Positions 1 to 64,000 of a stretch of DNA of 64,000 bases are shown piece after piece. The stretch comes from Spirosoma profusum (GTDB lineage: Bacteria > Bacteroidota > Bacteroidia > Cytophagales > Spirosomataceae): positions 1-64,000 of the forward strand of contig NZ_JACWZY010000012.1 in the NCBI RefSeq assembly GCF_014699005.1, read 5' to 3'. Positions within the stretch are counted from its first letter, which is position 1; every line of letters begins with the position of its first letter. The translations under genes and the position numbers were made by a program. Below the pieces are notes generated by a model. That model searched no databases and had not been told where the DNA came from. It saw nothing but the letters and a program-made list of their open reading frames with translations.

Positions 1-111
1 CTGTATTATTACGAAGCCACCGTCAGTTTCGCGGTGGCTGACAGGAACGCCCCCCCGCAAATCGTCAAAGGCTGGGTGCAAATCCTGCGCGAAGGCGTGA
101 CGATGCGGTAG
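1..111 (+). CDS. C-terminal tail of an unidentified protein (partial)
   Basis: An open frame runs from the first base to a TAG at 109-111 and encodes 36 residues ending in VTMR. The start lies outside the window. The tail, with YYYEATVSFAVAD near its beginning, reads like ordinary coding sequence but is too short to assign a family. It converges with the yebC-like gene on the other strand. Its stop codon is the first triplet of a long palindrome whose far end carries the yebC stop, so the two genes appear to share one terminator structure. Confidence 0.5.
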   Translation: MYYYEATVSFAVADRNAPPQIVKGWVQILREGVTMR

Positions 112-221
112 AAAGGAGTGATAATTGATGAACGATGAGAGATGAGTTCGCTGACGCCAAAAATAAAAGCATGCGTCAGCGAACTCATCTCTCATCGTTC
201 ATCAATTATCACTCCTTTCTA
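109..221. terminator. 49-bp-arm perfect palindrome spanning two convergent stop codons
   Basis: The arms 109-157 and 173-221 are exact reverse complements around a 15-base A-rich loop (158-172). The outermost triplets are the TAG stop of the upstream plus-strand gene and the TAG stop of the minus-strand yebC-like gene. The structure could serve as a bidirectional terminator, but the arms are far longer than usual and lack a strong T-run, so it may instead be an inserted repeat that brought the stops with it. Confidence 0.7.
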
Positions 222-932
222 TTTCATGTTATGATACACCGTCTGAACGTCGTCGTCCTCTTCGATACGTTCGATGAGTTTTTCTACGTCGGCGACTTCT
301 TCGTCGGTTAATTCTTTGTAATCGTTCGGAATCCGCTCAAATTCAGCCTGTTTGATTTCATAGCCTTTTTCTTCCAGGAACTTCTGAAGGCTTCCGAAAG
401 CAGTGAATTCGCCGTAGATGACGAGTTGATTCGTTTCATCGTCAAGCTCGATTTCATCTCCCCCAATATCAATCAGTTCAAGTTCGAGTTCTTCCTGGTC
501 AATACCCTCCGCCGGAATTCGAAATACCGATTTCCGGTCAAACATAAAGTCGAGCATCCCCTGCGTACCCAGGCTGCCACCGAGTTTATTCAGGTAGCTC
601 CGAATGTTGGCAACGGTGCGATTGTGATTGTCAGTAGCGGTTTCGATAACCAGTGCAATACCGTGTGGCGCATAGGCCTCATACACGATTTCCTTATAAT
701 CCTCCTGATCTTTCGACGAAGCTTTTTTGATGGCCCGCTCCACATTGTCTTTCGGCATGTTAGCGGCTTTGGCGTTCTGGATGATAGCCCGAAGCCGGCC
801 GTTACTATCCGGGTCGGGGCCTCCGGCCTTCACGGCCATTACGATGTCTTTGCCGATGCGGGTAAAAGTCTTGGCCATTTGCCCCCAGCGTTTCATTTTG
901 CGGGCTTTCCGGTATTCAAATGCGCGTCCCAT
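219..932 (-). CDS. yebC: YebC/PmpR family regulatory protein
   Basis: The 237-residue product matches the YebC/PmpR/TACO1 family over its whole length, which is normal for the family. The N-terminus MGRAFEYRKARKMKRWGQ and the block KAGGPDPDSNGRLR (about residues 36-49) are typical, as is the acidic C-terminal third. Members are cytoplasmic; some act as DNA-binding regulators, and recent work links several to translation of difficult peptide motifs. The gene stands alone, convergent with the gene upstream of it and separated from lysA by a second palindrome. Which YebC role applies here cannot be told from sequence. Confidence 0.9.
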   Translation of the reverse strand: MGRAFEYRKARKMKRWGQMAKTFTRIGKDIVMAVKAGGPDPDSNGRLRAIIQNAKAANMPKDNVERAIKKASSKDQEDYKEIVYEAYAPHGIALVIETATDNHNRTVANIRSYLNKLGGSLGTQGMLDFMFDRKSVFRIPAEGIDQEELELELIDIGGDEIELDDETNQLVIYGEFTAFGSLQKFLEEKGYEIKQAEFERIPNDYKELTDEEVADVEKLIERIEEDDDVQTVYHNMK

Positions 933-966
933 TTTTTAGAACAATGTATAATGAAGAATGTATGTC

Positions 967-1051
967 AATAGAACGCTGATCTTTATGATTGATCTGATTT
1001 TCTAACTAAGAACAGGTAAATCAGATCAATCATAAAGATCAGCGTTCTATT
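967..1051. terminator. 34-bp-arm palindrome between lysA and yebC
   Basis: The arms 967-1000 and 1018-1051 are perfect reverse complements with a 17-base spacer. The right arm overlaps the last codons of lysA (stop at 1039-1041), so on the minus strand the hairpin folds across the lysA stop codon. It probably ends lysA transcription before yebC. The arm sequence differs from the palindrome at 109-221, but the design (long perfect arms including a stop codon) is the same. Confidence 0.65.
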
Positions 1052-2301: not shown

Positions 2302-2343
2302 ACTTTCCTGAAACGAGCCGCAAAATTACGCTATCTTTCCCCC

Positions 2344-3732
2344 ATGTACAAGATTCAATATTATCTGCTGGCACTTACGCTGGGATGCGTTTATCCTTCG
2401 TTCGGTCAACAGCCTCAGGTTGTTAAAGCCCGCATCAGTGGCCACGGAGGCCAGAAGGCAAACGTTACGTCTCAGCTCCAGTCAGGACCGATGGTTGGCT
2501 ATTCCGATACGCGCGAAGTGATGCTCTGGGCACAGACTAAACAGCCCGCCAAAGTTCAGATTCGCTATCATGAAGTGGGCAAGTTAACACCCGTCCATCT
2601 GACCAATGAAGTACTAACCGACCGGAAAACGGCTTTTACAGCCCACCTGCTCGCCGATCAGGTGGACCCCGGAAAAAAGTACGAGTACGAGCTGTTAATC
2701 GGGGGCCAGAAGGTGAGCCTGCCCTACCCGACCCAGTTTCAAACCCAAAGCCTGTGGCAGTGGCGGACGGACCCGACGGCTTTTCGTTTCGGCGTCGGAA
2801 GCTGCACCTACGTCAACGAACCTGAATACGACCGACCTGGCAAACCCTACGGCGGAGGCTACGAAATTTTTTCGGCTATTTCAGCGCAGAAACCCGATTT
2901 CATGCTCTGGACGGGCGACAATACGTATACCCGCGAGGTAGACTGGAACAGCCGAACCGGTGTTTTAAAACGCTACACACACACACGCTCGTTGCCCGAA
3001 ATGCAGCCGCTGCTGGCGAATACGCATAACTACGCTACGTGGGACGACCACGATTTCGGCCCGAACGACGCCGACCGCTCGTACTGGCTCAAACCCGTTA
3101 CGTTGGAAGCGTTCAAACTGTTCTGGACAAATCCGAACTACGTGTTTCCGGAGGGATGCGCCGGTACGTTCTTCTGGAACGATTGCCAGTTTTTTCTGCT
3201 CGACGACCGTACATTCCGTGCGCCCAACGACATGCCCGACGGTCCAGCCAAGGCGTATTTTGGCGATACGCAAATTCAGTGGCTGGTGGATGCCCTGACG
3301 TTCAGCCGTGCTACGTTCAAATTTATCGTAACGGGCGGTCAGATCATCAATCCGACGGAAGCGTTTGAAAACTACTCCATTTACGGCACCGAGCGAAAGC
3401 GTTTTTTTGCCGCGATTGCCGAAGCGAAAATTCCGGGTGTGCTGTTCATCACCGGCGACCGACACCATTCCATTCTGCATAAATTAGATCGTTCTGGTAC
3501 GTATCCATTATACGATCTGACCATTTCTCCCTTGACATCGTCCGTAGCACAACCCCGCGCCGACGAACTCAAACAGTCAACTTATGTGGATAATACGTTA
3601 GTTACCGAACGGAATTTCGGTTTGCTGAGCGTGAGTGGCCCACTAAATGATCGGGTGCTCAACATAAAAGTATTTGACCAGAAAGGCACCGAGCGATGGA
3701 GCCGTGATTTACGGGCCAGCGAGTTGAAATAG
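2344..3732 (+). CDS. PhoD-like phosphatase / phosphodiesterase, exported
   Basis: The 462-residue product begins with a signal peptide (MYKIQYYLLALTLGCVYPSFGQ). A longer reading frame starts at 2284 but would overlap lysA and precede the signal peptide, so the ATG at 2344 is preferred; a TATCTTTC sequence (2332-2339), close to the Bacteroidota -7 consensus, lies just upstream. PhoD-family metal-site motifs are visible: GVGSCTYV, WTGDNTY, WDDHDFGPND (W233-H236 region) and TGDRHHS. Family members release phosphate from mono- or diesters in the periplasm using Fe/Ca or related metals. The exact substrate is unknown. Confidence 0.85.
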   Translation: MYKIQYYLLALTLGCVYPSFGQQPQVVKARISGHGGQKANVTSQLQSGPMVGYSDTREVMLWAQTKQPAKVQIRYHEVGKLTPVHLTNEVLTDRKTAFTAHLLADQVDPGKKYEYELLIGGQKVSLPYPTQFQTQSLWQWRTDPTAFRFGVGSCTYVNEPEYDRPGKPYGGGYEIFSAISAQKPDFMLWTGDNTYTREVDWNSRTGVLKRYTHTRSLPEMQPLLANTHNYATWDDHDFGPNDADRSYWLKPVTLEAFKLFWTNPNYVFPEGCAGTFFWNDCQFFLLDDRTFRAPNDMPDGPAKAYFGDTQIQWLVDALTFSRATFKFIVTGGQIINPTEAFENYSIYGTERKRFFAAIAEAKIPGVLFITGDRHHSILHKLDRSGTYPLYDLTISPLTSSVAQPRADELKQSTYVDNTLVTERNFGLLSVSGPLNDRVLNIKVFDQKGTERWSRDLRASELK

Positions 3733-11583: not shown

Positions 11584-13482
11584 ATGGATTATTTCAAAAA
11601 CCTGCTCCAATTACTCAAAACCGAACGGGATGAAGATCAGCGTCAATACCAGAAACTCACCGAAACTACGTCAATAGCCGAACGCCGGGCCGCTGGCCTG
11701 ACCTGGTATCCGATTGCCATTCGCGGCAACGAAATGAGCCGGGGTGATTACCTGACCGTCGAAGTGGAACGTACTACACATCAGGACATTCCGCATCAGC
11801 TTCGGTTTGGAATGCCTGCCGTTTTGTTCAGCAACCACGACCCACGTAACGACCGCGTCGAAGGCACCGTAACTCACCAGAGCGGCAACCGACTCAAGAT
11901 TACGCTACGTACCGACGAACTCCCTGACTGGTCGCGCGATGGCAAGCTGGGCGTGGAAGCCCTTTTCGACGACAATAGCTACGACGAAATGGAATCGGCG
12001 CTCAAAACGGCCAATACGTTAGGCGACAAATCTGAAAACCGGCTCATTCAAATCCTGACCGGAGAAAAAGTTGCTACGTTCCACACAGAAACATTTATGC
12101 CAACTTTCCCGAAACTGAATCCCAGTCAGGTAGCGGCTGTTGGAAAAATCCTGTCTGCCAACGAATTGGCGATTGTGCATGGCCCGCCGGGAACGGGCAA
12201 AACCACTACGTTGGTTCAGGCGATAAAAGCGCTTCATAAACAGGACAGTAAGAAAATATTGGTTGTCGCGCCCAGCAACACCGCTGTCGATTTGCTGAGC
12301 GAGAAACTGCACGATGAAGGACTGAACGTACTACGTGTCGGTAATCCGGCTCGCGTATCGGAGCGGCTGATGGCCCTGACGCTGGATCAGAAAGTGAGCG
12401 AACATCCGGCGATGAAAGAAGCCAAAAAGCTGAAAAAGCAGGCCAATGAGTTTCGCAATATGGCCCACAAATACAAGCGAAATTTTGGCAAAGCCGAACG
12501 CGACCAACGGAAAGCCCTGTTCGATGAAGCACACCGAATCATGAAGGACGTAGCAAACACCGAGCAGTACGTTATGGACGATCTGATTGCTAAAGCGCAG
12601 GTCATTACCGCTACGTTGGTGGGTGCTAATCATTACACCGTTCGTAATTTAACGTATCATACGGCAGTTATCGACGAAGCGGGTCAGGCACTGGAACCGG
12701 CCTGCTGGATTCCCATCCTGAAAGCACAAAAATTAGTTCTCGCCGGCGACCATTGCCAGCTTCCACCGACTATCAAATCGCCCGAATCGGCCCGGAATGG
12801 ACTGGCCACTACGTTGCTCGAAAAATGTGTAGCACTTCAACCAGAGGCTGTTACGTTGCTCAATGAGCAATACCGAATGCACGAGCACATCATGGGTTAC
12901 TCATCGCAGGTGTTTTATGAGAGTAAAGTGAAGGCCCACGAATCAGTAGCGCGTCATTCCCTGTTTGATGGTGATACGTCGCTGGCATTTGTCGATACGG
13001 CGGGTTGCGGATTCGAGGAAAAGCTGGAAGGTACCAGTTCGACCAATCCCGAAGAAGCGGCTTTGCTGATGAAGCATTTAACTCAACTGGTAACCAATCT
13101 GAGTACGCGCTACATCCGGGCAGACTTTCCGACTATTGCGGTTATTTCTCCCTACAAACAGCAGATCAGCATTTTGAAAGAATTGTTGCTACAAACCGCT
13201 GAACTTCAAGAATACCGAGACAAAATTTCGATAAACACCATCGACAGTTTTCAGGGGCAGGAACGTGACATTGTGTACATCTCCCTGACGCGTAGCAACA
13301 CCGAGGGCGACATTGGTTTTCTGTCGGACATTCGACGAATGAACGTAGCGATGACCCGCGCCCGCAAAAAACTAATCGTTGTGGGCGACAGTGCTACGTT
13401 GGCCAGCCTGCCGTTCTACAGCGATTTCATTACGTATTCCGAAAATCTGAATGCTTATCAGAGTGCGTGGGAATGGATGTAG
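11584..13482 (+). CDS. Superfamily 1 DNA/RNA helicase, Upf1/IGHMBP2-like
   Basis: A 632-residue cytoplasmic ATPase. An N-terminal beta-barrel-like region (about 1-165) precedes the helicase core. Walker A is G200-PPGTGKTT (K206), Walker B is D364-E365 in VIDEAGQA, motif III is AGDHCQLPPT, motif V includes INTIDSFQGQERDIV and motif VI is MNVAMTRARKKL. This is the layout of the SMBP2/Upf1 branch (SF1B, 5'-3' unwinding). Its role in bacteria is poorly known; nucleic-acid repair or RNA remodelling is likely. Single-gene unit, with a hairpin after the stop. Confidence 0.9.
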   Translation: MDYFKNLLQLLKTERDEDQRQYQKLTETTSIAERRAAGLTWYPIAIRGNEMSRGDYLTVEVERTTHQDIPHQLRFGMPAVLFSNHDPRNDRVEGTVTHQSGNRLKITLRTDELPDWSRDGKLGVEALFDDNSYDEMESALKTANTLGDKSENRLIQILTGEKVATFHTETFMPTFPKLNPSQVAAVGKILSANELAIVHGPPGTGKTTTLVQAIKALHKQDSKKILVVAPSNTAVDLLSEKLHDEGLNVLRVGNPARVSERLMALTLDQKVSEHPAMKEAKKLKKQANEFRNMAHKYKRNFGKAERDQRKALFDEAHRIMKDVANTEQYVMDDLIAKAQVITATLVGANHYTVRNLTYHTAVIDEAGQALEPACWIPILKAQKLVLAGDHCQLPPTIKSPESARNGLATTLLEKCVALQPEAVTLLNEQYRMHEHIMGYSSQVFYESKVKAHESVARHSLFDGDTSLAFVDTAGCGFEEKLEGTSSTNPEEAALLMKHLTQLVTNLSTRYIRADFPTIAVISPYKQQISILKELLLQTAELQEYRDKISINTIDSFQGQERDIVYISLTRSNTEGDIGFLSDIRRMNVAMTRARKKLIVVGDSATLASLPFYSDFITYSENLNAYQSAWEWM

Positions 13483-19768: not shown

Positions 19769-20908
19769 CTATTTTTTGGATGAACCTTCATTAAAAAATA
19801 CAAATAGACCATCTTTTCCGGCTACAATTATGTCCTTCCGGCCAGTTTTGTGCAAATCGGCTACAGCGAAATAGATACCTGTTCCTTTACCTACGCCAGC
19901 CTGGCCATACGAAATGTCGTGCTTCTCGAACTTCTTTTGTGCTACGTTCCAGGTAAAATAATAAAGCCCAACCGGGTCGTAACAGCCGGGGTCGCCATCG
20001 TTATGGGCACGGAACCGCTTACCGGTAATGAGGTCAGGCCGGCCATCGCCCGTAATATCTATCCATTCGAGGCAGTGGTATTGGGAGTTTTTATCGTCTA
20101 TCAGGTGTTTGGTCCAGCTACGTTTCGCTTTGCCATCGCCCGTTTGTTCATACCAGTGCAGGCCGTACCCGTGTCCCTGCCCAACAATTAAATCAGCCCG
20201 TTTATCGCCGTTCACATCGGCCACGATGATGGGCACACTGGCCGTACCCAGTGCAAATTCTTTATGCAGCGTCCAGTTGCCTGACTCCCGGTCAACGGGA
20301 GCTTCGAGCCAACCATCGCTCACAATAATATCGCCCCGGCCATCGGCATTCACATCACCAAACCCCAGGCCATGCCCTTGTGTGGGTGCTACGTTAATCG
20401 TTTTGAACGTACCAGGCTCAGTTAACTTCAGGTATTTCAGTGGATGATTCGGGTTATTTGGTACGATTTCAAGTTTACCATCTCCGTCGATATCCCAGGC
20501 ACGCGTCGTTTCTACGTTACCGACTTTGCCAATTTCGTGCAAGGGCCAGGTCTTTTTACCATCGCCTGGATTCTCGACCCAACGTATTGTTTGATCAAAC
20601 CAGCCGCCGGTTACAAAATCCTGACGACCATCAGCGTTCACATCCATTGGAATGGTCGAAAAATCGTCGTAGTACTGGTCTTTGCGGGGCTCATTCCCAA
20701 TCAGGTGCCGACGTCGAAAATGGGGGCCTTCGTACCAGAAGTCGCCGGAAACCAAGTCGAGCGTATCGTTTTTGTCTACATCAAAAACGCCTACGGATTC
20801 ATAACTCTCAGCCGCCACAAAATACCGGCGAAAGGTGGGTGTCGGTTCAGGTGCGGTCAGGCCAACGAGCATGACTATACTCGTAAGGCAAACTATGATT
20901 CGAATCAT
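19769..20908 (-). CDS. Secreted FG-GAP/VCBS repeat protein
   Basis: A 379-residue protein with a signal peptide (MIRIIVCLTSIVMLVGLTAPEP). The rest consists of repeated calcium-binding-like propeller blades: VFDVDKNDTLDLVSGD, MDVNADGRQDFVTGG, WDIDGDGKLEIVPN, FGDVNADGRGDIIVSD, VADVNGDKRADLIVG and WIDITGDGRPDLITG. This pattern forms a seven-bladed propeller. Bacteroidota carry many such proteins near carbohydrate-use genes; a binding role at the cell surface or in the periplasm is likely. Confidence 0.85.
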   Translation of the reverse strand: MIRIIVCLTSIVMLVGLTAPEPTPTFRRYFVAAESYESVGVFDVDKNDTLDLVSGDFWYEGPHFRRRHLIGNEPRKDQYYDDFSTIPMDVNADGRQDFVTGGWFDQTIRWVENPGDGKKTWPLHEIGKVGNVETTRAWDIDGDGKLEIVPNNPNHPLKYLKLTEPGTFKTINVAPTQGHGLGFGDVNADGRGDIIVSDGWLEAPVDRESGNWTLHKEFALGTASVPIIVADVNGDKRADLIVGQGHGYGLHWYEQTGDGKAKRSWTKHLIDDKNSQYHCLEWIDITGDGRPDLITGKRFRAHNDGDPGCYDPVGLYYFTWNVAQKKFEKHDISYGQAGVGKGTGIYFAVADLHKTGRKDIIVAGKDGLFVFFNEGSSKK

Positions 20909-36684: not shown

Positions 36685-37828
36685 AAATCTCTACCCAGGC
36701 TTGTTTGCGGTTGCTTTCGAGGATTTTCTCGCAGATAAGCAGTTCACGGTAGCCGTCGGCGAAGGTTGGATACGTTGGTTTTTCGGGTTGTTTTCCAGCG
36801 GCAATCGCGTCGTAAACTTCTTTGAATAATTGTTTCGACGTATCGGGAAAACCTTCGTTGTGTCCACCGGGGAACGAGATAACTGAACGTGCTTCGGGGT
36901 GGGCAAGGGATGGATCACGCATGAACGATTCGTTGGCACCATCACGGTTACCAATCCACATTTCATTAGGCGATTCCGAGTTCCAGGCGTAGGTTTTTTT
37001 CGAACCAGCAATTTCCAGTTTCATCTGGTTCTTACGTCCGGCCGATACCTGCGATACCGTAATAACTCCTCTGTTACCATTGTCGAAACGTAGCAGTACG
37101 TTGGCGTGGTCTTCGGTATTGATCGGTACGTCGGCATAATCTTCCGGCTTCAGCATCTTACCCGAATACGTTTCTACAGGCTTAAGGGGCTTCTTACGCA
37201 GTTTGTGAACGGTGTTAAAGTCGGCCATAACCGCTACCGTTTTCAGGCCGGTGATGTATTCAAGACTATCCATCAGGTGCGAACCGATATCGGCAATCGC
37301 CCGCGAATCGCCCGATTTATCGGGTTCGAGCCGCCAGTTATAATCGGTATCGTAGAAGAGCCAGTCCTGTAAATAAGAGCCGATGATTGAATAAATGTCG
37401 CCCAGATCATTCTGCTCGCGCATTACTTTCATCTGACGTACCAGCGGATAATAACGCAGGTTGAAGTGTACGGCATTGACTAAGCCCGTTTTCTCGGCCA
37501 GCGCAACCAGTTCTTCAGCCTCGTGTAAATCCTTCGCCAGTGGTTTTTCGCATACTACGTGTTTACCTGCTTCCAGAGCCGCTTTCGACTGCGAGTAGTG
37601 CAGGAAATTAGGCGTACAGATGTGTACGACTTTGATATCGTCCATCTTAAGTAGTTCGTCAAACGTACAGGAACGTTCGATGCCAAGCTGGTCGGCTTTC
37701 TGACGAGCGAGTTCAGGCGTTACTTCGCAGAGCGCCAGAACATTGGTGTTGGGTAAACGACGCAGGGCTTCGATGTGCGCAGGCCCGATGAATCCGGTGC
37801 CAACGACACCAACATTAATTTTTTGCAT
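36683..37828 (-). CDS. Gfo/Idh/MocA family oxidoreductase
   Basis: A 381-residue cytoplasmic NAD(P)-dependent enzyme. Rossmann motif GVVGTGFIGPAH at the N-terminus, catalytic-type CEKPLAKD in the KHVVCEKPLA segment, and IADIGSHLMDSLEYITG in the substrate domain. The closest general type is the myo-inositol 2-dehydrogenase/glucose-6-phosphate 3-dehydrogenase-like group. It is flanked by palindromes and clustered with a second oxidoreductase and an epimerase. Confidence 0.9.
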   Translation of the reverse strand: MQKINVGVVGTGFIGPAHIEALRRLPNTNVLALCEVTPELARQKADQLGIERSCTFDELLKMDDIKVVHICTPNFLHYSQSKAALEAGKHVVCEKPLAKDLHEAEELVALAEKTGLVNAVHFNLRYYPLVRQMKVMREQNDLGDIYSIIGSYLQDWLFYDTDYNWRLEPDKSGDSRAIADIGSHLMDSLEYITGLKTVAVMADFNTVHKLRKKPLKPVETYSGKMLKPEDYADVPINTEDHANVLLRFDNGNRGVITVSQVSAGRKNQMKLEIAGSKKTYAWNSESPNEMWIGNRDGANESFMRDPSLAHPEARSVISFPGGHNEGFPDTSKQLFKEVYDAIAAGKQPEKPTYPTFADGYRELLICEKILESNRKQAWVEI

Positions 37829-40746: not shown

Positions 40747-40760
40747 ACCAACGTAGCAGA

Positions 40761-41714
40761 TTATACTTTTTTGAACGTGTATAAAGCAGTTGGATTGTCA
40801 ACCATGAGTTTTCGCCAGTAGCCACTCAGTCCCCGGCGCTCAAGTTCTTCACGAAAATGGGTCAATAAAAACACCAAACCTGGCTTCCCGCCATAAGATT
40901 GCCAGTACGTATTGCGGGCGGCATCCATACCCACTACTATCTGATCAGGAAAATCGGGCAGAAGGGTTTCCAGTAAATGATACGTTCCATTCGGTTCGTC
41001 TTTCTTCCAGCGAAACGCACTGTCATATTCAAGTCGCACACCGGTTTTCAATAGTTCCTGATGATACGTTACGTCCGGGCGACGGTCCACGTGTGAAAGT
41101 ACTACGTGTCTCAAATTGGCTCCTAACGTATCGAAGCGTTTCACTTGTTCCATCGCTTGTCGCCCCTCGTTTGTATGAGTCAGGATCGGTACGCCCGTTT
41201 CGCGGTGCGTATTGACCACTGCTCGGAAAATAACCTCCTGATGAGACGTAATGGCTTCATCACCAGTGGCTAATTTGACCATTCCCGCACGGTGAGAGGT
41301 TCGCTCAACAATGGGGCCGTTGTAATCGTAACGGTCGATACCTTCCATTACGTCGGCAATGAACAGGCGCGTTAGCTGATCTTCTGAATACTGATACCGC
41401 CAATGTGAAGCTGGGTAATATTTTTCCAGATGAATACCCGTTGGTGCTACAATATGAATACCCGATCGGCTTGATACGTCGGCCAGTTTCACTACGTTAC
41501 GCCCACAGTTAACAGGCATTGTATCGATCATTGTACGTCCACCGGCTGCGTACACCTGCGTCAATTCTGCCGTTATTTTCGCTACGTCGTTCAGCAGAAA
41601 ATCCGGGTTCGTTTGTGTCGGGAAACTTTCCTCGATAATGATATGCTCGTGGGCATACGTAACGCCCGCCTGTGAAGGATCAATATCGCCCAGAACGGTT
41701 CGAATAAACGTCAT
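40761..41714 (-). CDS. Phosphotriesterase-family hydrolase (PHP/lactonase-like)
   Basis: A 317-residue metal-dependent TIM-barrel hydrolase. HEHI near the N-terminus supplies two metal ligands, K in GMVKLATG is the likely bridging carboxylated lysine, THTNEG and VLSHVDRR supply histidines, and VVGMDAAR supplies the catalytic Asp. Most relatives of the COG1735 group are lactonases or hydrolases of unknown substrate. Its ATG overlaps the FAD oxidoreductase stop by four bases, so in this operon it may open a lactone made by that enzyme (inference). Confidence 0.85.
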   Translation of the reverse strand: MTFIRTVLGDIDPSQAGVTYAHEHIIIEESFPTQTNPDFLLNDVAKITAELTQVYAAGGRTMIDTMPVNCGRNVVKLADVSSRSGIHIVAPTGIHLEKYYPASHWRYQYSEDQLTRLFIADVMEGIDRYDYNGPIVERTSHRAGMVKLATGDEAITSHQEVIFRAVVNTHRETGVPILTHTNEGRQAMEQVKRFDTLGANLRHVVLSHVDRRPDVTYHQELLKTGVRLEYDSAFRWKKDEPNGTYHLLETLLPDFPDQIVVGMDAARNTYWQSYGGKPGLVFLLTHFREELERRGLSGYWRKLMVDNPTALYTFKKV

Positions 41715-43111
41715 GCTACGTTGTATATATGCCGCGCCGGAACATTATGTCGCCAGCCGTTACGCGACGTATCAGCAACAGCATCTGGTACGTCCAGAAC
41801 AGCGCCAAGTTGCAGCAAATCCTCCTGCAACTGCTTGATGGCTATAGCATTTGCTGGCTCATCGTTACGTAGTGACTGTACGGCTGCGAGTCCGGCAGCC
41901 TGCCCCATCGACATGGTTTGCGCCATCGACCGACACGACGCATGGGCATCGTGCGTGGCCGAAAAACACCGACCCACCACCCAGACCGTCTGGCTTCCTT
42001 TCGGGACTATAGTACCGTAGGGAACTCCATACACGCCCGCGCCGGGAATGTACTCCCAATACGTCTCCGACGATCCGTCTGCGCCTTGTCGATGGTCTTC
42101 GATGGGGGCACCGCAAAGGAAAATACGGTCGTTGGGGAGCAGACCCGCCAGGCATTCGTCTTTTGTGAGCCGATGTTCGCCGTAGACGCGCCGGGTTTCG
42201 CGCACGCCAATCTGATGCGAGAGACCGATGATATTCGACTCCTGATACCCCGGTACGTCATCGCGGAAAAAATCTTCGTACACAAAAGCCTGTCGTCGAC
42301 CTTCAATTTCGGCCTGTGTTAATGTTTCGGCATTCAATGCTGACAGCCCTGCTACTTTTACGGCAACCGTCGAGATGCACATTTTCGCGTTCATTTCATG
42401 TGCCGAACCTTCTTTGCGAGGCAATGGATGGTGGCCACTATCGACAGCTTCCTGCATAGCTCGCACCAACATTTTCTTGCCACCCGCCCGTTCATATTCG
42501 TCCAAATCGACATTGCTCATCCGAAACGTAGTGGTCATACTTTGAGCGGGTTCGTGCTCACCTGCGCGTTCGTAAGCAAAACCGGCTAAATGACAAAAAT
42601 CGGCATCGCCCGAGGCATCAATAACCCGCCGGGCCAGTACTTTACAAAAACCGCCTTTGTTCCAGAAAACACAACTGTAGCGTTCACCGGCTGAATTAAC
42701 ATCAATCAATGTAGTATGCAGTAAGTAGCGAATACCCTGTTGCTGAATTAGTTGATCCCAGACGAGTTTCAGCCGTTCGGGGTTGTAGTTGACGCCTGTA
42801 CCAGCTCCATACGTATTGGGACGCAGAAAAATATTACCCGTTTTGTCGAGTTCGTTCACGACGCGGTCGGGCCAGCCGCCAACCACTTTTCGCGGTGTTT
42901 CGCCGGGCGTAAAAAAGCCGTAGAACGTATCGAGCATCTGCGTCGACGTACCGCCCGGAAAACCGTACCGCTCCACCAGCATGACCGACAATCCTTGGCC
43001 CCGTTCTGCCGCAGCCAGAGCCGCTACGCACCCTGCTGATCCCGCGCCAATAACCAGTACGTCGACCTCAGCCAACAACGGCACCGCTACGTGATTAATA
43101 ATCGTAGTCAT
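41711..43111 (-). CDS. FAD-dependent oxidoreductase (FAD_oxidored type)
   Basis: A 466-residue flavoprotein. The dinucleotide-binding motif is VLVIGAGSAGCVAALAAAERG, followed by MLVERYGFPGGTST, and VIDASGDADFCHLAGF is the second conserved FAD segment of this family. The C-terminal CRSMAQTMSMGQAAGLAA is also typical. Substrates are largely unknown; sugar or polyol oxidation is plausible given the neighbours. It overlaps both adjacent genes by four bases, so it is translated from a common message. Confidence 0.87.
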   Translation of the reverse strand: MTTIINHVAVPLLAEVDVLVIGAGSAGCVAALAAAERGQGLSVMLVERYGFPGGTSTQMLDTFYGFFTPGETPRKVVGGWPDRVVNELDKTGNIFLRPNTYGAGTGVNYNPERLKLVWDQLIQQQGIRYLLHTTLIDVNSAGERYSCVFWNKGGFCKVLARRVIDASGDADFCHLAGFAYERAGEHEPAQSMTTTFRMSNVDLDEYERAGGKKMLVRAMQEAVDSGHHPLPRKEGSAHEMNAKMCISTVAVKVAGLSALNAETLTQAEIEGRRQAFVYEDFFRDDVPGYQESNIIGLSHQIGVRETRRVYGEHRLTKDECLAGLLPNDRIFLCGAPIEDHRQGADGSSETYWEYIPGAGVYGVPYGTIVPKGSQTVWVVGRCFSATHDAHASCRSMAQTMSMGQAAGLAAVQSLRNDEPANAIAIKQLQEDLLQLGAVLDVPDAVADTSRNGWRHNVPARHIYNVA

Positions 43112-45062: not shown

Positions 45063-45821
45063 TTAACTCTGCTTACGGTGAATCGTCATAGCGCCTGCCT
45101 GTGCACCCGCCAGAATGGTCATATCGGCAATGGTAACGTGCGCGGGAGCCGTTACGGCATACACAATGGCATCGGCAATGTCGTCGGGGGTGAGGGGTGT
45201 GAAGCCATTATAAATTTTTGCGGCACGCTCCTGGTCGCCTTTGAAACGTACCAGCGAAAACTCCGTTTCGACGGCACCTGGTGCTACGTTGGTTACCTTG
45301 ATTCCGTGCTGGGTTAAATCAAGACGCATACCCGCGCTGAGCGCTTCAACGGCGGCTTTACTGGCGCAGTACACAGCTCCGTTGGCGTAGATTTCTTTAC
45401 CGGCTATCGAGCTGATATTCACGATATGTCCCTTCTTTCGTTCAACCATACCCGGCATCACGGCTTTTGATACGTAGAGTAAGCCCTGCACATTCCCATC
45501 GATCATCTGGTCCCAGTCCGCTACGTCGCCATCCTGAATGGCCGACATCCCGTGTGCATTTCCCGCACAATTCACCAGAATATCAATGCTTTGCCACTCT
45601 TCAGGCAACGTATTGATGGATTCATAGACTTCTACCCAGTTGCGCACGTCGAAATTGAGCGTAGTCGTCGTCGTTTTCTGGCTTAACTGTTCCTGCAATT
45701 CATCCAGCCGGTCCTGCCGACGACCGCAAAGAATCAACCTGAATTCAAGATCGGCAAAAGCTTCGACGGTTGCGCGTCCAATCCCCGACGTAGCACCAGT
45801 AATAAGAGCAATACGAGACAT
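45063..45821 (-). CDS. Short-chain dehydrogenase/reductase
   Basis: The product (252 residues from ATG 45821, MSRIALITGATSGIGRA) is a classical SDR: TGATSGIG cofactor motif, NCAGNAHG, catalytic Ser in VNISSIAG and the YCASK active site. CGRRQDRL after strand 2 suggests NADP preference. The type is close to YdfG-like 3-hydroxy-acid or serine dehydrogenases. An upstream extension to 45893 has no SDR features. It is not part of the adjacent ROK operon. Confidence 0.9.
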   Translation of the reverse strand: MSRIALITGATSGIGRATVEAFADLEFRLILCGRRQDRLDELQEQLSQKTTTTTLNFDVRNWVEVYESINTLPEEWQSIDILVNCAGNAHGMSAIQDGDVADWDQMIDGNVQGLLYVSKAVMPGMVERKKGHIVNISSIAGKEIYANGAVYCASKAAVEALSAGMRLDLTQHGIKVTNVAPGAVETEFSLVRFKGDQERAAKIYNGFTPLTPDDIADAIVYAVTAPAHVTIADMTILAGAQAGAMTIHRKQS

Positions 45822-50459: not shown

Positions 50460-51686
50460 ATGCAAACATCTCTTGGTCACCTCGGCTATTGCACCAATAT
50501 TCATGCGGGCGAATCTTGGGAAGCTCATTTTGCGGCTCTCCAACAGGCAATTCCCGAATTAAAAAAACGACTGTCGCCCGATGCTCCTTTTGGTATCGGC
50601 CTGCGGTTGTCGAACGAAGCGAGCGAAGAACTGGAGCAGCCCGAAAATCTGATCCAGTTTCAGCACTGGTTGGCCGATACTAACTGCTACGTCTTCACAA
50701 TGAATGGTTTCCCGTTTGGCGGATTCCACGATATGGTCGTGAAAGACCACGTTCACACGCCCGACTGGACCACCGAAGCGCGTGTCGAATACACCAAACG
50801 GTTGTTTCGGATTTTGTCGGTTTTACTGCCGGTCGATGAATTGGGCAATGCCATTCAGGGTGGCGTTTCTACGTCGCCCCTTTCCTATCGTTACTGGTTT
50901 GAGTGGGAACAGCCCGCAGCCCGCGATTATATTCTGTCGCAAACGACCCAGAACGTACTGGAAGTGGTTTCGGAGATGGTACGTCTCCATCGCCAAACCG
51001 ACCGGTTGATGCACCTCGATCTGGAGCCTGAACCCGATGGGGTTATCGAAACTGCCGACGAGTTCATCGCGTGGTTTACCGACTATCTCCTGCCGATGGG
51101 CATTGAGCAACTGACCGAAGAATTCGGAATGTCAGATACTGAAGCTGAAACTGTTATCTGCGAACACGTCCGGCTTTGCTACGATGTTTGCCATTTTGCA
51201 GTCGGTTACGAACGACCCGCCGACGTACTGGACAAGATGAAGGAATACGGTTTGAGAATTGGTAAAATACAAATCAGTGCCGCGCTAAAAGCTCAGTTTC
51301 CAACCAGTTCCGAAGCTGACCGTGAAGCCGTTCGACAGGCATTTGCGCAGTTCAACGAGCCAACGTATCTGCATCAGGTAGTAGCGCGTACTACGTCGGA
51401 TGAACTGCTACGTTTCCGGGATTTACCCGACGCGCTGGTGGCTTTCAACGAAAATCATGCCGAATGGCGCTCTCACTTCCACGTACCGATTTTTGTGAAC
51501 GATTACGGCGTTCTTCAGTCGACCCAAGATGATATTCGGGAAGTGCTACGTTTGCAGGCGGAGCGACGGTTCACCAATCAACTCGAAGTCGAAACCTATA
51601 CCTGGGGCGTATTACCCGACGATCTGAAAAAAGACATCGTCGATTCCATTGACCGAGAAATGAAGTGGGTAATTGAAAATGAGTAA
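50460..51686 (+). CDS. eboE: EboE-like TIM-barrel metabolite-traffic protein
   Basis: A 408-residue protein with a xylose-isomerase-like barrel. Signature stretches include GYCTNIHAGESWEAHFAAL, TMNGFPFGGFHD and LDLEPEPDGVIE (metal-site acidic cluster), with LCYDVCHFAVGYE further on. This combination, directly behind the dehydroquinate-synthase-like gene and ahead of an alkaline-phosphatase-like gene, matches EboE. In cyanobacteria ebo genes are needed to bring the scytonemin precursor to the periplasm; in Bacteroidota the cargo is unknown. Confidence 0.72.
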   Translation: MQTSLGHLGYCTNIHAGESWEAHFAALQQAIPELKKRLSPDAPFGIGLRLSNEASEELEQPENLIQFQHWLADTNCYVFTMNGFPFGGFHDMVVKDHVHTPDWTTEARVEYTKRLFRILSVLLPVDELGNAIQGGVSTSPLSYRYWFEWEQPAARDYILSQTTQNVLEVVSEMVRLHRQTDRLMHLDLEPEPDGVIETADEFIAWFTDYLLPMGIEQLTEEFGMSDTEAETVICEHVRLCYDVCHFAVGYERPADVLDKMKEYGLRIGKIQISAALKAQFPTSSEADREAVRQAFAQFNEPTYLHQVVARTTSDELLRFRDLPDALVAFNENHAEWRSHFHVPIFVNDYGVLQSTQDDIREVLRLQAERRFTNQLEVETYTWGVLPDDLKKDIVDSIDREMKWVIENE

Positions 51687-51841: not shown

Positions 51842-53230
51842 ATGAAAAAAACCGTAGTACTCGACGTAGTTGGGCTGTCTTATTCGCTGATTAGCGAACA
51901 TACACCTTTTTTGAAACAGTGGTTCGCGGGTAAACATCAGGCGACTATTGACCCCATGCTGCCCGCCGTTACTACGTCGGTACAATCGACCTACGTAACG
52001 GGCAAATGGCCGAGCGAAACCGGTATCGTGGGCAATGGCTGGTACGACCGGACCGACTCCGAAGTGAAGTTCTGGAAACAGTCGAACAAGTTGGTTGGTG
52101 GCGAAAAAATATGGGAACGGGCCAAGAAAATCGACCCGAATTTCACTGTATCGAAAATGTTCTGGTGGTACAACATGTATTCTACCGCCGATTTTTCGGC
52201 TACACCACGCCCGCAATACCCATCCGACGGCATGAAAATTGCCGATTGCTACACCCACCCCGGCGACCTCCGCGACAAGCTTCAAAAGGAGCTTGGTACA
52301 TTCCCGCTGTTTCAATTCTGGGGACCGGCTACGACCATTAAAAGCAGTCGCTGGATTGCCGATGCGTCGATGCTGGTAGATCAGTGGCACAACCCGACGC
52401 TCACGCTAATTTACCTGCCCCACCTGGATTATTGTCTCCAGAAATTTGGCCAGGATTTCTCAAAAATTGGCAACGATCTGCGCGAAATCGACGACGTTTG
52501 CCGCGACCTGATTCAGTTCTACGAGAAACAAAACGCCGAGGTGATTGTGCTGTCGGAATATGGCATTACCAACGTATCGAAGCCCATTCATATCAACCGG
52601 ATACTACGTGAAGCGGGGATGATACGTTACCGAGAAGAACGCGGCCTGGAAGTATTCGATGGGGGGGCTTCCCCGGCATTCGCTACACCCGATCACCAGA
52701 TTGCGCACGTGTATGTCAACGATCCTTCGGTTTATACCAAAGTACGTTCGCTGCTCGAAAAAACGCCGGGTATTGAACTAGTTCTGGACAAGGAGCAGCA
52801 GAAAAAATATCATATCGACCACGACCGTTCGGGCGATTTTGTCGTGATGGCCGACGCTACTAGCTGGTTCACGTATTATTACTGGCTCGACGATGCGCGC
52901 GCCCCTGATTATGCCCGTTTGGTGGCTATTCACCAAAAACCCGGTTACGACCCCGTCGAGATGTTCATGGATCAGACAAACCCGCTTATTAAGCTGAAAG
53001 CGGGCTACAAACTGGGGCGAAAATTGCTCGGTTTCCGCTACCTGATGAACGTAATTTCGCTGGATGCTACGTTAGTAAAAGGTTCGCACGGGCGGGTGGG
53101 TGTGCCGACCGAACATCATCCGGTTTTTGTTAGCAGCCAAAACCTAGGGAAGTCGTTGGCTGCCACCGATGTTTATGACCAGATTTGGGAAATACTGGCG
53201 GTTGAATCGCCCAAAAAACAGAAGGCCTGA
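51842..53230 (+). CDS. eboF: EboF-like alkaline-phosphatase-superfamily protein
   Basis: A 462-residue protein of the nucleotide pyrophosphatase/phosphodiesterase type. The nucleophile region is LPAVTTSVQSTYVTGKWPSE, HLDYCLQKFG supplies metal ligands, VLSEYGIT stands where most relatives have SDHG, and GSHGRVGVPTEHHPVF holds the C-terminal His ligands. No signal peptide is evident. Following eboD and eboE it fits EboF. Substrate unknown. Confidence 0.72.
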   Translation: MKKTVVLDVVGLSYSLISEHTPFLKQWFAGKHQATIDPMLPAVTTSVQSTYVTGKWPSETGIVGNGWYDRTDSEVKFWKQSNKLVGGEKIWERAKKIDPNFTVSKMFWWYNMYSTADFSATPRPQYPSDGMKIADCYTHPGDLRDKLQKELGTFPLFQFWGPATTIKSSRWIADASMLVDQWHNPTLTLIYLPHLDYCLQKFGQDFSKIGNDLREIDDVCRDLIQFYEKQNAEVIVLSEYGITNVSKPIHINRILREAGMIRYREERGLEVFDGGASPAFATPDHQIAHVYVNDPSVYTKVRSLLEKTPGIELVLDKEQQKKYHIDHDRSGDFVVMADATSWFTYYYWLDDARAPDYARLVAIHQKPGYDPVEMFMDQTNPLIKLKAGYKLGRKLLGFRYLMNVISLDATLVKGSHGRVGVPTEHHPVFVSSQNLGKSLAATDVYDQIWEILAVESPKKQKA

Positions 53231-54660: not shown

Positions 54661-57600
54661 ATGGTGCGCCTTTCGCTGCTTTTGCTTCTGCTGACTCCCC
54701 ACTTGCCGGGGTTCACCCAGCCCAGTCAGGCTGGCAGGACGAACGTAGCAGCACCCGTCGGAAAATCCATTGTCAATCAGTTCGAGCATTTGTCGGTAAA
54801 AGATGGGCTGTCCGATAACTCGGTCAACTGCATTCTACAGGATCGGGAAGGATTCATGTGGTTTGGTACCAACGATGGCTTAAATAAATACGACGGCTAC
54901 AATTTCACCGTACTCAAATCGGACCCGAACGACCCGCAGCATAGTTTTCAGAATGACTTACTGTCTGGCCTGTGCGAAGATCACGCCAACCGACTTTGGG
55001 CCGTTACGCAGGGCGGCTTGCACGAAATCAATAAGGAGACGGGGCAGGTAATTCCGCACCTGATACGTTCCGTCCGCAACGCCGATTTGTGGAATTTCCA
55101 GCATTCCGTTTTTGAAGATAGTCAACACGTATTGTGGATTAGTTCGTTAGCCGGACTAGCTCGTTATGAACCAGAGAAACATTTTTTTACGCTTTTTCCG
55201 GTTCCTGATCCTGAAGCCACTTTAAAAACCGTGTTTGAAGACCCACAGCACCGGCTCTGGGTTGGCACGTACCGGGGCTTGTACCTGTTCGACCGCACAT
55301 CAGGACGCTATACATTGGTGCCGGTTCCCGTGCCAGCGGGCGATTATCAACCGACATTCATTGCCTTCCATCTCGACGCCCGGCAGGTTCTTTGGATGGG
55401 TACTTCCACAGCGGGTTATGGTTTGTTCCGGCTCGATTTGAAACGGCAGCCCTGGCAACTGGAGCCTTATAATCCGAACGGCCAAATCAATCCGTTTACA
55501 TTTCTGAATTCGCTACGTAGCGATGCCGACGGTATTTTCTGGATGGCAACCACTACGGGTTTACAACGTATCGACCCAGTACGTAATCAGGTTTATACGT
55601 ATCGGCCTAATCCAAATGAGCCCAAAGGCATCAGCAGCAGTATGGCACAGACGGTGTATATCGACCGAATGGGCACGCTCTGGGTAGGTACGGATAACGG
55701 TATCGACCAACAGTCCATGCACGATAAGCCATTCGTTACGTATCAGGTACGTCCGAACAAAGGCACGGCGAATCTATCTGAGAACAAAGTAGTTGCGCTA
55801 CTACCCGATAAAAACGGCGGTTTCTGGACCAGCAACGGCTATACCGTTTATCGACCACGTAACAGACAGACATCCGAACCGATTCCTCCCGCCATACTGG
55901 GCTCGATTGGTACGTATAAAAATTACACGCAGGCGCTCGCACCCGATGGTCGGAATGGCGTCTGGCTAGGAACCTGGAAGGGTTTGTACCATTTCGATAG
56001 AGCAACGAATCGGTTTAGTAGTTACCCGGCTGAGGTTCCGGTCGAGTACATGAGCTGGGGGCCAACGGGTGAGTTATGGGTAGGTGGGTATATTGCGCCT
56101 GAGTCCGGAATTGCCGCTTTTAATCCGCAAACGCACCGGTATCGGTATTATAAATTTGACCCGAAAAGTCCGAATGGTTTGCCCGATCAATACGTTCATG
56201 GGCTGCTCGCCAGTCGGAATGGCGATGTCTGGATACCGTTCCGCAAACAGGGGATTGCCCGGTTACATTCGAAAACGGGTCGTTTTGATCATTATCTGGC
56301 TGGTTCGAAAAGTGGTTTAAATAACAATGCTGTCCTTACCGTTCACGAAGACAGATCAGGAACCATCTGGCTCGGTACGCAACAGGGTGGTATCAACCGC
56401 TTCGACGCAAAAACAGAGCGTTTCTCGGCTTTTACCATCCGCGACGGACTACCGAGTAATAACATTGTCGGTATTACCAGCGATCAGGCGGGTAATCTTT
56501 GGATAAGCACCGACAAGGGCCTGTGCCGGTTCGATCCACGAACGAAGCGGGCGCGTAATTATCAGACGACGAACGGGTTACCTAGTAATGATTTTCTCAA
56601 AAATGCTGTATTTAAACAGCAAAATCGGCTCTTTTTCGGTACGCTGAATGGCGTCGTTCATTTTAATCCTGACAGCATTCACGACGATACGCGCCAGTTA
56701 CCCGTACAAATCACCGAGTTGAACGTTCATGACCAAATCCGACCAATTACCGGATCTCGCGTTACGTTAACGTATAATGAAAATTTTTTGTCGTTCAGCT
56801 TTGCGGCACTGACTTTCAGGCAGAATCAGCAGAACAAGTATGCGTATCAACTCGTTGGCGTCGATGAAGACTGGATTCAGAACGGAACCCGCCATTTTGC
56901 CAACTACACCAATCTTCCCCCCGGCGATTATACGTTCCGGGTAAAAGCCTCTAGCAGCGATGGTACCTGGACCGAAAACGAAGCTGCTGTTCAGGTTGTT
57001 ATCCAGCCGCCATGGTGGGCCACCTGGTGGGCATATAGCCTATATATTCTGCTATTAGGTGGGATTATCTGGGGGCTGATACGTTTCTACCTGAATCGGC
57101 TTCGGCAGCAGCAGGAACTGGAACTGAACCGCCGGGAAGCCGAACAGCTCAAAACCGTCGATGAACTGAAAACGCGCTTTTTCTCGAACATTACACACGA
57201 GTTTCGGACGCCCCTTTCGCTCATCATTTCGCCAGTTGAAAAACTGCTTCATGACAACCGATTCGATACCTCGACCCGACAAACACTGGGGCTGATGAAA
57301 CGTAACGCAGACCAGTTACTACGTCTCATTAACCAACTTCTCGATCTCTCGAAGCTGGAAGCCGGGCGGCTGGACGTATCGTTGATGCGCGGAGAGGCCA
57401 TTGAATTCGTCGAACACGTAGTGGAATCGTTCCGGCAGGCGGCCGAGCAGAAGAACGTAACGCTAATTTTCACCAGCGAACGTAGCACCCACGATTGTCT
57501 GTTCGATGCCGACAAGTGGGAAAAAATTCTGACTAATCTGCTGGCGAATGCGGTGAAGTTTACGGGTCAGAACGGCAACGTAGCGGTTTCGTTGACACCC

Positions 57601-61701: not shown

Positions 61702-61705
61702 AAGA

Positions 61706-61805: not shown

Positions 61806-61902
61806 CTTTTGGAGGGGAAGCAACGGCGGAAAAACACAAATTAATATTTTTATAATTCAAAAATGCTAGCTATCTTGACCGTACAATCAACATGTTAAGG
61901 TC

Positions 61903-62373: not shown

Positions 62374-62385
62374 GGAAATTCACGT

Positions 62386-62440
62386 TTAAAATGTAAAAGC
62401 CAGTAATCTGACTATCAGATCACTGGCTTTTACATTTTAA
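62386..62440. terminator. Bidirectional terminator
   Basis: TTAAAATGTAAAAGCCAGT (62386-62404) is the perfect reverse complement of 62422-62440; an inner ATCTG/CAGAT pair extends the stem. It lies between two convergent genes. Confidence 0.88.
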
Positions 62441-62452
62441 CGCGAATACAGT

Positions 62453-62968
62453 TCAATTTATGGCTTGAGCAGTCTCGCCCGAAGCCATTTTGCCCGTAAT
62501 AACATGGTCTTCAAGTAAGCGTTTGATGATACTGCTGGGTGGCACCTGTTCGCCATACGTTGGATTTGAGGAAACAATGGCTTTCCAGAATGGCTGACCT
62601 GTGGCCGCAGTTTTCATGTCAACATCATACTCATATGGTACGTTGGTATACTGACTCGACTGGCCCCGCTGAACTAGTTCGAGTGTTAGTATGACGTCAC
62701 TCTGACAGTTGGCTACCTGCTTACGGATTTCCTCGTCTGGATTACCGAACGACAGTGGAGTCAATGCCAGCGTGCATACGTCGTAATTCCTTGGAAACTG
62801 ACGGGCGAATCCCTGGACATACTTTTCCGAAGCCTTCCGTAGTTTCGTCACAATCAGCACGCGCTTGAACGTTGGGATAGCGTCTGCCTGAACATTCGAT
62901 TTCACCGTGACGCAGCCTGTCAAACTAACCATTATAGTTACAACAAGCCATTTGTAGAGCGTTTTCAT
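62453..62968 (-). CDS. Lipoprotein of unknown function
   Basis: From ATG 62968 the product has 171 residues and a lipobox (VSLTGC, Cys about residue 19). An upstream extension to 63016 would place polar residues ahead of the signal and is rejected. The mature part (FKRVLIVTKLRKASEKYVQGF, SDVILTLELVQRG) resembles small envelope proteins of the DUF4136-like type only loosely. No function assigned. Confidence 0.65.
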   Translation of the reverse strand: MKTLYKWLVVTIMVSLTGCVTVKSNVQADAIPTFKRVLIVTKLRKASEKYVQGFARQFPRNYDVCTLALTPLSFGNPDEEIRKQVANCQSDVILTLELVQRGQSSQYTNVPYEYDVDMKTAATGQPFWKAIVSSNPTYGEQVPPSSIIKRLLEDHVITGKMASGETAQAIN

Positions 62969-63090
62969 AACTAAGAAGCGTTGATTTTCGTCTATTAAGA
63001 TAACTACATATACCAAATAAATAGTTAAATGCCAGTTAAAGATCCTTACTATGGATTGTTAACTATCTTACCAGAAAATAGATCAACGCT

Positions 63091-64000
63091 ATGCCGCAAC
63101 TGCTTTTCCTGCTCGTACTCTTTTTGCCCATAGCCTGCCACTCCCAATCCACGCAGTCGCTACGTACGCCCGGCCTTCAGCAACCTGTTGACATCATTCG
63201 TGATCGTTGGGGAGTCAATCACATTTACGCCAAAAACGAACACGATTTATTTTTTGCACAGGGTTATTCGGCCGCCCGCGATCGGCTTTTTCAGCTCGAA
63301 ATCTGGCGTCGACAGGCGACCGGTACCGTAGCCGAACTGCTGGGACCACAGGAAATTAAACGCGACATTGGTACCCGGCTGTTCAAGTTTCGGGGCAGCA
63401 TGGCGCAGGAATTAACGCATTATCATCCACGCGGAGCGCAGATTGTTCAGGCATTTGTGGATGGCATTAACGCCTACATTTCCGAAATTTTGAAAACACC
63501 CGAAAAACTACCTTTCGAATTCAATGTACTTCAGACAAAACCACAACCCTGGACACCTGCCGTAGTTATCAGTCGGCATCAGGGACTGCTTTACAACGTC
63601 CGTGACGAACTGGATTATGGTCGGCTGGTGAAACTGATTGGTGCCGACAAACTCCGTGAACTGGAATGGTTTCACCCCACTACCAAACCAACCGAACCCG
63701 ATCTGACGCTACGTGTAAACGGCGACGAATTGTTTCAGCCCATTTTGGAACTATACGAAGCATTTCGGCTTCCGCTGAAATTTCAGGGCCAGGCCAGCAA
63801 AGCCGACGAAGACGCGAGCAATCGCACAAAACAGTCAATCGACGATTGGTGGAATACCGAAAAACAGTACGTTGGCTCGAATAACTGGGTGATTTCGGGT
63901 AATAAATCGGCCAGTGGCTATCCCATGTTGGCCAACGATCCGCACCGATCTCAGGCAACACCTTCGTTACGTTACTGGGTCCATTTAAATGCTCCCGGCT
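63091..64000 (+). CDS. Penicillin acylase family protein (partial)
   Basis: An open frame from ATG 63091 runs off the window end, so only about 303 residues are visible. The N-terminus is a signal or lipoprotein signal (LLVLFLPIAC). VDIIRDRWGVNHIYAKNEHDLFFAQGY and AARDRLFQLEIWRRQATG are typical of the alpha chain. S263 in YVGSNNWVISG is the expected N-terminal nucleophile after self-cleavage. Members hydrolyse penicillins, acyl-homoserine lactones or other amides; which one cannot be told here. It would act in the periplasm. Confidence 0.88.
   Translation, partial: MPQLLFLLVLFLPIACHSQSTQSLRTPGLQQPVDIIRDRWGVNHIYAKNEHDLFFAQGYSAARDRLFQLEIWRRQATGTVAELLGPQEIKRDIGTRLFKFRGSMAQELTHYHPRGAQIVQAFVDGINAYISEILKTPEKLPFEFNVLQTKPQPWTPAVVISRHQGLLYNVRDELDYGRLVKLIGADKLRELEWFHPTTKPTEPDLTLRVNGDELFQPILELYEAFRLPLKFQGQASKADEDASNRTKQSIDDWWNTEKQYVGSNNWVISGNKSASGYPMLANDPHRSQATPSLRYWVHLNAPG

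Follow-up and report, generated by a model that had tools for sequence, protein, structure and literature searches.

The genome of Spirosoma profusum (8.73 Mb in 81 contigs; hereafter G000) is densely filled with an asymmetric motif of ~9 bp, YRNTACGTH (Y, pyrimidine; R, purine; H, any base except G), the core of which is the pentamer TACGT. The motif is present at 4.6 copies per kb in G000. The starting point was a window that comprises the first 64,000 nucleotides of contig NZ_JACWZY010000012.1; in it, a first-pass annotation made from the letters alone had described TACGT and its complement ACGTA as strikingly frequent. The window is part of this Spirosoma-like genome, and a helicase protein encoded in it shows up to 86% identity to proteins of named Spirosoma species.

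The reported frequency was confirmed. TACGT ranks first among the over-represented 5-mers of the window when judged by a maximum-order Markov model (both strands together, 475 copies versus 336 expected; z 12), and an order-1 simulation of the window yielded only 122.6 ± 12.1 copies of TACGT and 22.9 ± 5.3 copies of YRNTACGTH on both strands (for the counts on each strand, see Table 1). The 16 4-kb bins of the window each contain 11 to 33 copies of YRNTACGTH. We also applied a null model in which synonymous codons were swapped among positions, keeping every protein and the codon usage; as open reading frames (ORFs), the longest frames were taken by a simple rule. In the 53 ORFs of the window, TACGT occurs 216 times on the coding strand versus 62 in the shuffled sequences, and ACGTA 204 times versus 73. 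The excess of TACGT is slight in codon phase 0 (29 versus 22) and four- to five-fold in phases 1 (50 versus 12.6) and 2 (137 versus 27.7), and is thus not confined to a single phase. Outside the ORFs, 55 copies were found versus 17 under independent bases.

The same holds beyond the window. In a 400-kb sample of G000 (20 stretches containing 334 kb of ORFs), TACGT again ranked first among the 5-mers (2,512 copies versus 839 in shuffles, 3.0-fold), and non-ORF sequence of G000 (57 kb) contained 410 copies versus 133 under an order-1 model (3.1-fold). The congener G001, sampled equally as a negative control, gave 536 copies versus 535 in shuffles. Therefore, an effect of codons or proteins, which the first-pass annotation had already dismissed, is rejected by the synonymous shuffles, the presence in all phases, the enrichment in non-ORF sequence and the negative control, and the occurrence of the word on both strands and in gaps is also verified. 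A restriction target would be expected to be avoided, whereas TACGT is strongly over-represented. In the window, the word is skewed to the + strand (Table 1; YGCTACGT, 54 versus 29); this skew is local, and the counts of YGCTACGT in G000 are even (4,605 forward and 4,690 reverse, contig orientation being arbitrary).

Although TACGT is enriched as a word, it is merely the core of the larger unit, because RYNTACGTH, in which the two flanking base classes are exchanged, is hardly enriched (231 versus 193). Enrichment in G000 is 7.3-fold for YRNTACGTH, 1.2-fold for RYNTACGTH and 14.6-fold for YRCTACGTH, and reaches 16.9-fold and 19-fold in the strongest forms, TGCTACGT and TGCTACGTT, respectively. 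The preference is for pyrimidine-purine at positions -3 and -2 and for C at -1, and G is disfavoured at +1. The motif is not palindromic: TACGTT is more enriched than TACGTA (3.6-fold versus 3.0-fold), and the flanks differ (YRN on the left, H on the right). ACGT without a flanking T or A, which had been regarded as ordinary, is in fact depleted (455 versus 802 expected, 0.57), and 13 of the 15 words that differ from TACGT by one base lie below expectation in the 400-kb sample of G000. Where Ala-Thr is followed by a T-initial codon, GCTACGT is used at 186 of 238 sites in G000, versus 19 in the shuffles and 12 of 106 sites in G001; at xxN-ACN-T sites, TACGT is present at 899 of 1,843 sites, versus 218 in the shuffles and 116 of 975 sites in G001. 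YRNTACGTH is equally enriched on the coding and template strands (7.38- versus 7.04-fold), unlike CTACGT alone, which is somewhat higher on the coding strand (6.1- versus 4.4-fold).

CTACGT was counted in 36 genomes of the genus and 181 genomes of the family, and YGCTACGT was compared with its reversed control in 52 chosen genomes. The count in G000 is 21 times the control (9,295/442). Three of the 35 congeners are strongly enriched, some are intermediate and the majority lie near chance. The counts are 4,981/378 in G049, 4,083/441 in G008 and 3,736/403 in G040, and 1,533/258 in G003, 1,124/259 in G007 and 1,119/226 in G048 (71% complete); the ratio is near 2.4 in G002 and G014, near 1.8 in G016 and about 0.75 to 1.5 in the other Spirosoma genomes. 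Two members of another genus, G135 (1,762/368) and G136 (1,676/348), are also raised, although the extended motif is weak in both (YRN form 2.2 and 1.9, RYN form 1.0 and 1.3). The reversed control is a rough yardstick between genera, because the reversed word is rare in the family member G170, which shows 518/142 yet no enrichment over codon shuffles (57 versus 54). Enrichment of 1.9- to 2.6-fold was also seen among named species (80 loci, none longer than 22 kb), namely in Spirosoma validum, Spirosoma terrae, Spirosoma endophyticum and two species of Fibrisoma. The YRN form is high and the RYN form low in all enriched Spirosoma sampled (G008, G049, G040, G003, G007, S. terrae and S. endophyticum), and the two Fibrisoma loci show the extended motif at 4.5-fold versus 0.9. 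In Fibrella, TACGT is raised 1.4- to 1.6-fold and the extended motif is absent (YRN 1.26, RYN 1.29).

On an rpoB tree that includes 30 of the 36 genomes of the genus (G007, G012, G011, G002, G021 and G048 were left out), the enriched species do not group together. G000 lies beside the plain, that is, unenriched, genomes G020, G046 and G004 (support 1.0), G049 beside the plain G017 (0.99), and G003 with the plain G045 and G019 (0.999); G008 and G040 are in a poorly resolved part.

Comparison with plain relatives indicates that the word in G000 is both retained and created. Reciprocal-best-hit pairs were aligned codon by codon with 16 plain genomes, close kin pairs being left out; the pairs are not independent. 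G000 retains the TACGT of a plain congener at 473 of 764 aligned sites (0.62), versus 0.38 between plain genomes, and words with one mismatch in the plain genome are matched by TACGT in G000 at 1,002 of 10,718 sites, 3.1 times the rate between plain genomes. All 15 one-base routes to TACGT are raised in G000 (1.5- to 16.9-fold), the largest ratios being among transversions, and words with two mismatches are matched by TACGT 5.3-fold more often. The 17 control rows of this test, in which one word is repeated and two rows are the same word on opposite strands, range from 0.62 to 2.03; of the highest, GACGT (2.03), TGCTA (1.94) and CGTAT (1.48) overlap the motif and CGATT (1.43) does not. The pooled one-mismatch ratios of other enriched genomes are 1.9 in G008, 1.7 in G003 and 1.9 in G040 with G049, with some routes not raised. 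In a second test, using sites conserved among relatives in 26 families aligned across genomes (21 plain genomes; kin of the focal genome left out), creation where the relatives agree on a one-mismatch word occurred at 17 of 282 sites in G000, versus 88 of 4,310 summed over the plain genomes, and retention at 16 of 18 sites versus 205 of 301.

Site sharing between enriched species, calculated with the same number of plain genomes (21), is about what their densities predict: the ratios for G000, G008, G040, G049 and G003 are 2.10, 2.10, 1.65, 1.66 and 1.91, versus predicted values of 1.91, 2.32, 2.26, 2.27 and 2.39, so that G000 lies slightly above and the other four below prediction. Inheritance of the copies from one enriched ancestor is therefore disfavoured.

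These marks fit a favouring of the motif at the DNA level, site by site, through either drive or weak selection; from the 7- to 19-fold enrichment and the Ala-Thr sites, we infer a scaled strength of roughly 2 to 4. Our leading reading, which we advance with less than full conviction and short of calling it probable, is a molecular drive tied to the exchange of DNA or to the repair of heteroduplexes, acting through a lineage-specific DNA-reading factor. In G000, as the enrichment and the comparison with relatives show, the motif behaves as an attractor: protein-neutral alleles that make YRNTACGTH are favoured and those that break it disfavoured at each site separately, on both strands and in genes and gaps alike. 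DNA bearing the motif would be preferentially kept or used as template during exchange or heteroduplex repair, by a putative factor that certain lineages of Spirosoma and Fibrisoma may have in active form and that others may have lost, altered or retargeted. Resident DNA would gradually accumulate copies, a process that mobile DNA of recent arrival would not yet have undergone. Among the 175 genes that passed a filter for density analysis (750-2,000 bp, expectation at least 1.4), four of the ten with the lowest density encode a transposase, integrase, relaxase or conjugative coupling protein, versus none of the ten of middle rank.

Several observations weigh against such a drive. The contrast in mobile genes is small in number. 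The four other enriched genomes tested at conserved sites, G008, G040, G049 and G003, show no excess of creation (14 of 914), yet their retention is high (55 of 65 versus 205 of 301 in plain genomes), and the copies in these genomes may therefore be older. The YRC form is faintly raised even in plain species (42 versus 22 in 13 pooled loci and 31 versus 20 in G001); given this rise, an old origin with many losses is conceivable. No responsible factor was found, and none of the genes searched tracks the enrichment. The competence channel protein ComEC (PF03772) is encoded in all 21 genomes searched, and a PDDEXK_1 nuclease of AddB-like length, which we take for AddB, in all 17 genomes searched (with a shorter frame in G015), enriched or not; being universal in the tested genomes, neither explains any difference between species. 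Finally, the marks of a drive would be indistinguishable from those of simple weak selection acting on binding sites. As a separate observation, the ComEC domain of the plain genome G015 lies in two open frames (G015:C1:1033425-1034230), which points either to a disrupted gene or to an error in the sequence.

The drive has two close rivals, biased DNA uptake and a binding protein that marks self DNA. Under the former, which we consider doubtful, a competence receptor would prefer DNA carrying YRNTACGTH and transformation would be biased accordingly, other genera having other dialects. The word shares with the DNA uptake sequences (DUS) of Neisseriaceae and the uptake signal sequences (USS) of Pasteurellaceae an asymmetric form with a fixed core and graded flanks, of the type spanning ~9-12 bp, the motif here being 8-9 bp with graded strength. 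DUS and USS occur at about one strong copy per kb in Neisseria and Haemophilus, and YGCTACGT in G000 has a similar density (~1.06 per kb). USS are evenly spaced, as if one copy per fragment suffices. The low density in some mobile genes and the presence of ComEC in all genomes searched also suit uptake, although ComEC does not track the enrichment. Given the proteins, copies within ORFs are placed near-independently (observed/expected pairs, 0.97 to 1.11 at 12-1,500 bp), with no repulsion up to 1,500 bp and hence without the even spacing of uptake sequences; raw clustering below 300 bp is nearly all explained by where proteins allow the motif, and close pairs of the strong form at 12-100 bp have the same orientation at a fraction of 0.57, slightly above half. 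Fragment-level uptake should saturate, and this placement, at a density as high as 4.6 per kb, speaks against such a bias. The word also differs from DUS and USS in belonging to another phylum and in being at chance level in most species of its genus. To our knowledge, neither competence nor a receptor has been described for the genus Spirosoma. The change of words between related genera resembles the dialects of DUS in Neisseriaceae, as outlined in PMC3630211, and these dialects, together with the molecular-drive account of uptake sequences (PMC1939737), are nearest in form to the Spirosoma word.

Somewhat unlikely, in our judgement, is weak selection for sites bound by an abundant nucleoid-associated or self-marking protein, each copy of YRNTACGTH adding slightly to fitness. 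Such binding would be strand-blind and additive, would operate in ORFs and gaps alike, and would accord with the lack of the word in some newly acquired genes; the slight excess of pairs at 30-100 bp (1.11-fold, z about 2.5) would suit cooperative binding. However, tens of thousands of sites would have to be under selection in some species and none in others, despite a divergence of 15-23% of aligned coding bases among the species, and no such protein was found.

A mechanism of the kind that Elhai proposed for the cyanobacterial highly iterated palindrome HIP1 (GCGATCGC), in which a DNA methyltransferase acts on the motif and its spread is driven by mismatch repair that methylation directs, seems improbable. 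The over-representation of the word beyond both Markov and codon expectation across the genome is HIP-like, and so are its iteration, its sporadic distribution and the replacement by other words in relatives, features ascribed to HIP1 and the alternate HIPs of cyanobacteria in PMC4390886. According to the same paper, HIP1 is palindromic, linked to a methyltransferase and present at about one copy per kb, whereas YRNTACGTH is non-palindromic and denser, and has no shared cognate methyltransferase in the families tested. C5 methyltransferase (PF00145; E 1e-10, 36 genomes) was found in G000 and was absent from G008, G040, G049 and G003; N6/N4 methyltransferase (PF01555; E 1e-8, 34 genomes) was absent from G000 and G040, and D12 methyltransferase (PF02086; E 1e-8, 34 genomes) from G000, G008 and G040. 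None of these type II families is thus common to the enriched genomes, and G040 lacks all three. Methyltransferases of PF02384 were present in all seven enriched genomes and in 8 of the 13 others among the 20 searched. The PF02384 proteins of G000 and G040 are 56% identical, and their best PADLOC matches are type I methyltransferases; all other pairs, from five of the seven enriched genomes, are <30% identical. Methylation, which the first-pass annotation had listed as a possible cause, is therefore unsupported as far as the three type II families are concerned, and may yet involve PF02384. The likeness that this annotation drew to HIP1 and DNA uptake sequences holds for the behaviour of the word (genome-wide, on both strands, in all phases, with one-off words mostly depleted and other words in related genera), but the word is probably neither.

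A mutation bias or a reduced mutability of the word, for example by Vsr-like correction or protection from damage, would be strand-blind and site-autonomous, as observed, and is nonetheless very unlikely. A single mutation type is excluded because the increase in G000 covers every one of the 15 routes, by transition as well as by transversion, and protection alone is disfavoured for this genome because creation is raised along with retention. The least credible explanation is a Chi-like signal recognised by a recombination enzyme of the AddAB or RecBCD type: the word is short, asymmetric and over-represented, as Chi is, and the AddB-like nuclease is universal in the genomes tested, but that nuclease occurs in enriched and plain species alike, and no strand polarity was seen in 23 segments, in which word skew was uncorrelated with GC skew (Spearman 0.13, p 0.54; for gene orientation, 0.40, p 0.056).

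Elsewhere in the family, other words appear to be used. With the same shuffling null, applied to 12- to 22-kb samples of single loci or ~40-kb samples of genomes, AAACCG was enriched in three species of Larkinella (98/35, 53/18 and 61/26, observed/shuffled), with 38 copies versus 7.4 outside the ORFs of these three, and in a fourth species with a shorter locus (24/8). GGTAC was enriched in G170 (202/91; 42 versus 11.7 outside ORFs) and in G195 (188/100), and AATGC in several Dyadobacter species (e.g. 123/47), more weakly outside ORFs (94 versus 72). AAACCG, GGTAC/AGTACC and AATGC are possibly dialects of one phenomenon. As a tentative extension, Spirosomataceae may possess an undescribed class of lineage-specific DNA-recognition systems, each recognising its own word of 6-9 bp (AAACCG in Larkinella, GGTACT in another genus, and TGCTACGT in Fibrisoma and part of Spirosoma). 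Such a word would be driven towards saturation at the most permissive sites, would serve as a self-signature that sets resident DNA apart from foreign DNA, and would be distinct from both methylation-linked HIPs and classical uptake sequences. No such word in this group is described among the matches listed in the open-licence PubMed Central literature, subscription journals and preprints being outside that scope.

Explaining words that are iterated throughout a genome, HIP1 and DUS among them, is difficult. In the present case, enriched and plain species stand side by side in one genus, the same motif recurs in several lineages and neighbouring genera have other words, which amounts to a natural comparative experiment; a survey of gene presence and absence should therefore reveal the gene responsible, and the drive should be measurable. 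If the word does mark self DNA, it would represent a new level at which resident DNA is told apart from foreign DNA.

The positions of TGCTACGTT in the window are listed in Table 1, together with the helicase gene. In this gene, the first-pass annotation had counted about 20 copies by eye against about 4 expected with equal base use; the arithmetic is right, and the + strand carries 13 TACGT and 8 ACGTA, two pairs of which overlap as TACGTA. A flanking T or A is present on 19 of the 20 ACGT of the gene. TACGT falls in phases 2, 1 and 0 at 10, 2 and 1 sites, respectively, and the three examples cited earlier for the three phases are all present.

Table 1. Counts of the word in the window and positions of the helicase gene and of the strongest form of the motif
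Feature	Position	Strand	Remarks
Whole window	1..64000		TACGT 269 on +, 206 on -; YRNTACGTH 181 on +, 131 on -
Helicase gene (AAA_11/AAA_12)	11584..13482	+	21 words at 19 ACGT sites; Pfam
TGCTACGTT	3309..3317	+	
TGCTACGTT	12072..12080	+	in helicase gene
TGCTACGTT	13392..13400	+	in helicase gene
TGCTACGTT	19940..19948	+	
TGCTACGTT	20387..20395	+	
TGCTACGTT	27016..27024	+	
TGCTACGTT	27432..27440	+	
TGCTACGTT	28639..28647	+	
TGCTACGTT	29140..29148	+	
TGCTACGTT	41714..41722	+	
TGCTACGTT	45282..45290	+	
TGCTACGTT	51406..51414	+	
TGCTACGTT	51544..51552	+	
TGCTACGTT	53065..53073	+	
TGCTACGTT	28457..28465	-	
TGCTACGTT	31430..31438	-	
TGCTACGTT	37087..37095	-	
TGCTACGTT	40750..40758	-	
TGCTACGTT	54742..54750	-	
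TGCTACGTT	57479..57487	-	

The density of the word also varies locally in G000. A 20-kb piece (G000:C11:200001-220000) that contains a DDE transposase shows a low word density (1.58-fold, versus 2.1 to 3.8 in the other 23 pieces) and is probably a recent island. The density of YRNTACGTH also differs with the type of gap: 42 copies were counted in 6.9 kb between convergent genes (6.1 per kb), 161 in 32.5 kb between tandem genes (5.0) and 31 in 11.6 kb between divergent genes (2.7); promoter-bearing gaps thus seem to be poorer in the motif, the gene calls being rough.

In addition, several words are avoided in these genomes. Two palindromes are strongly avoided in both G000 and G001: CTGCAG was found 26 times versus 229 expected in G000 and 50 times versus 274 in G001, and CCGCGG 12 times versus 138 and 22 times versus 143, respectively. 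The non-palindromic 6-mer CGCCTC/GAGGCG is nearly absent from G001 (1 copy versus 108 expected by shuffling, 400 kb), a very strong avoidance that suggests an active restriction system.

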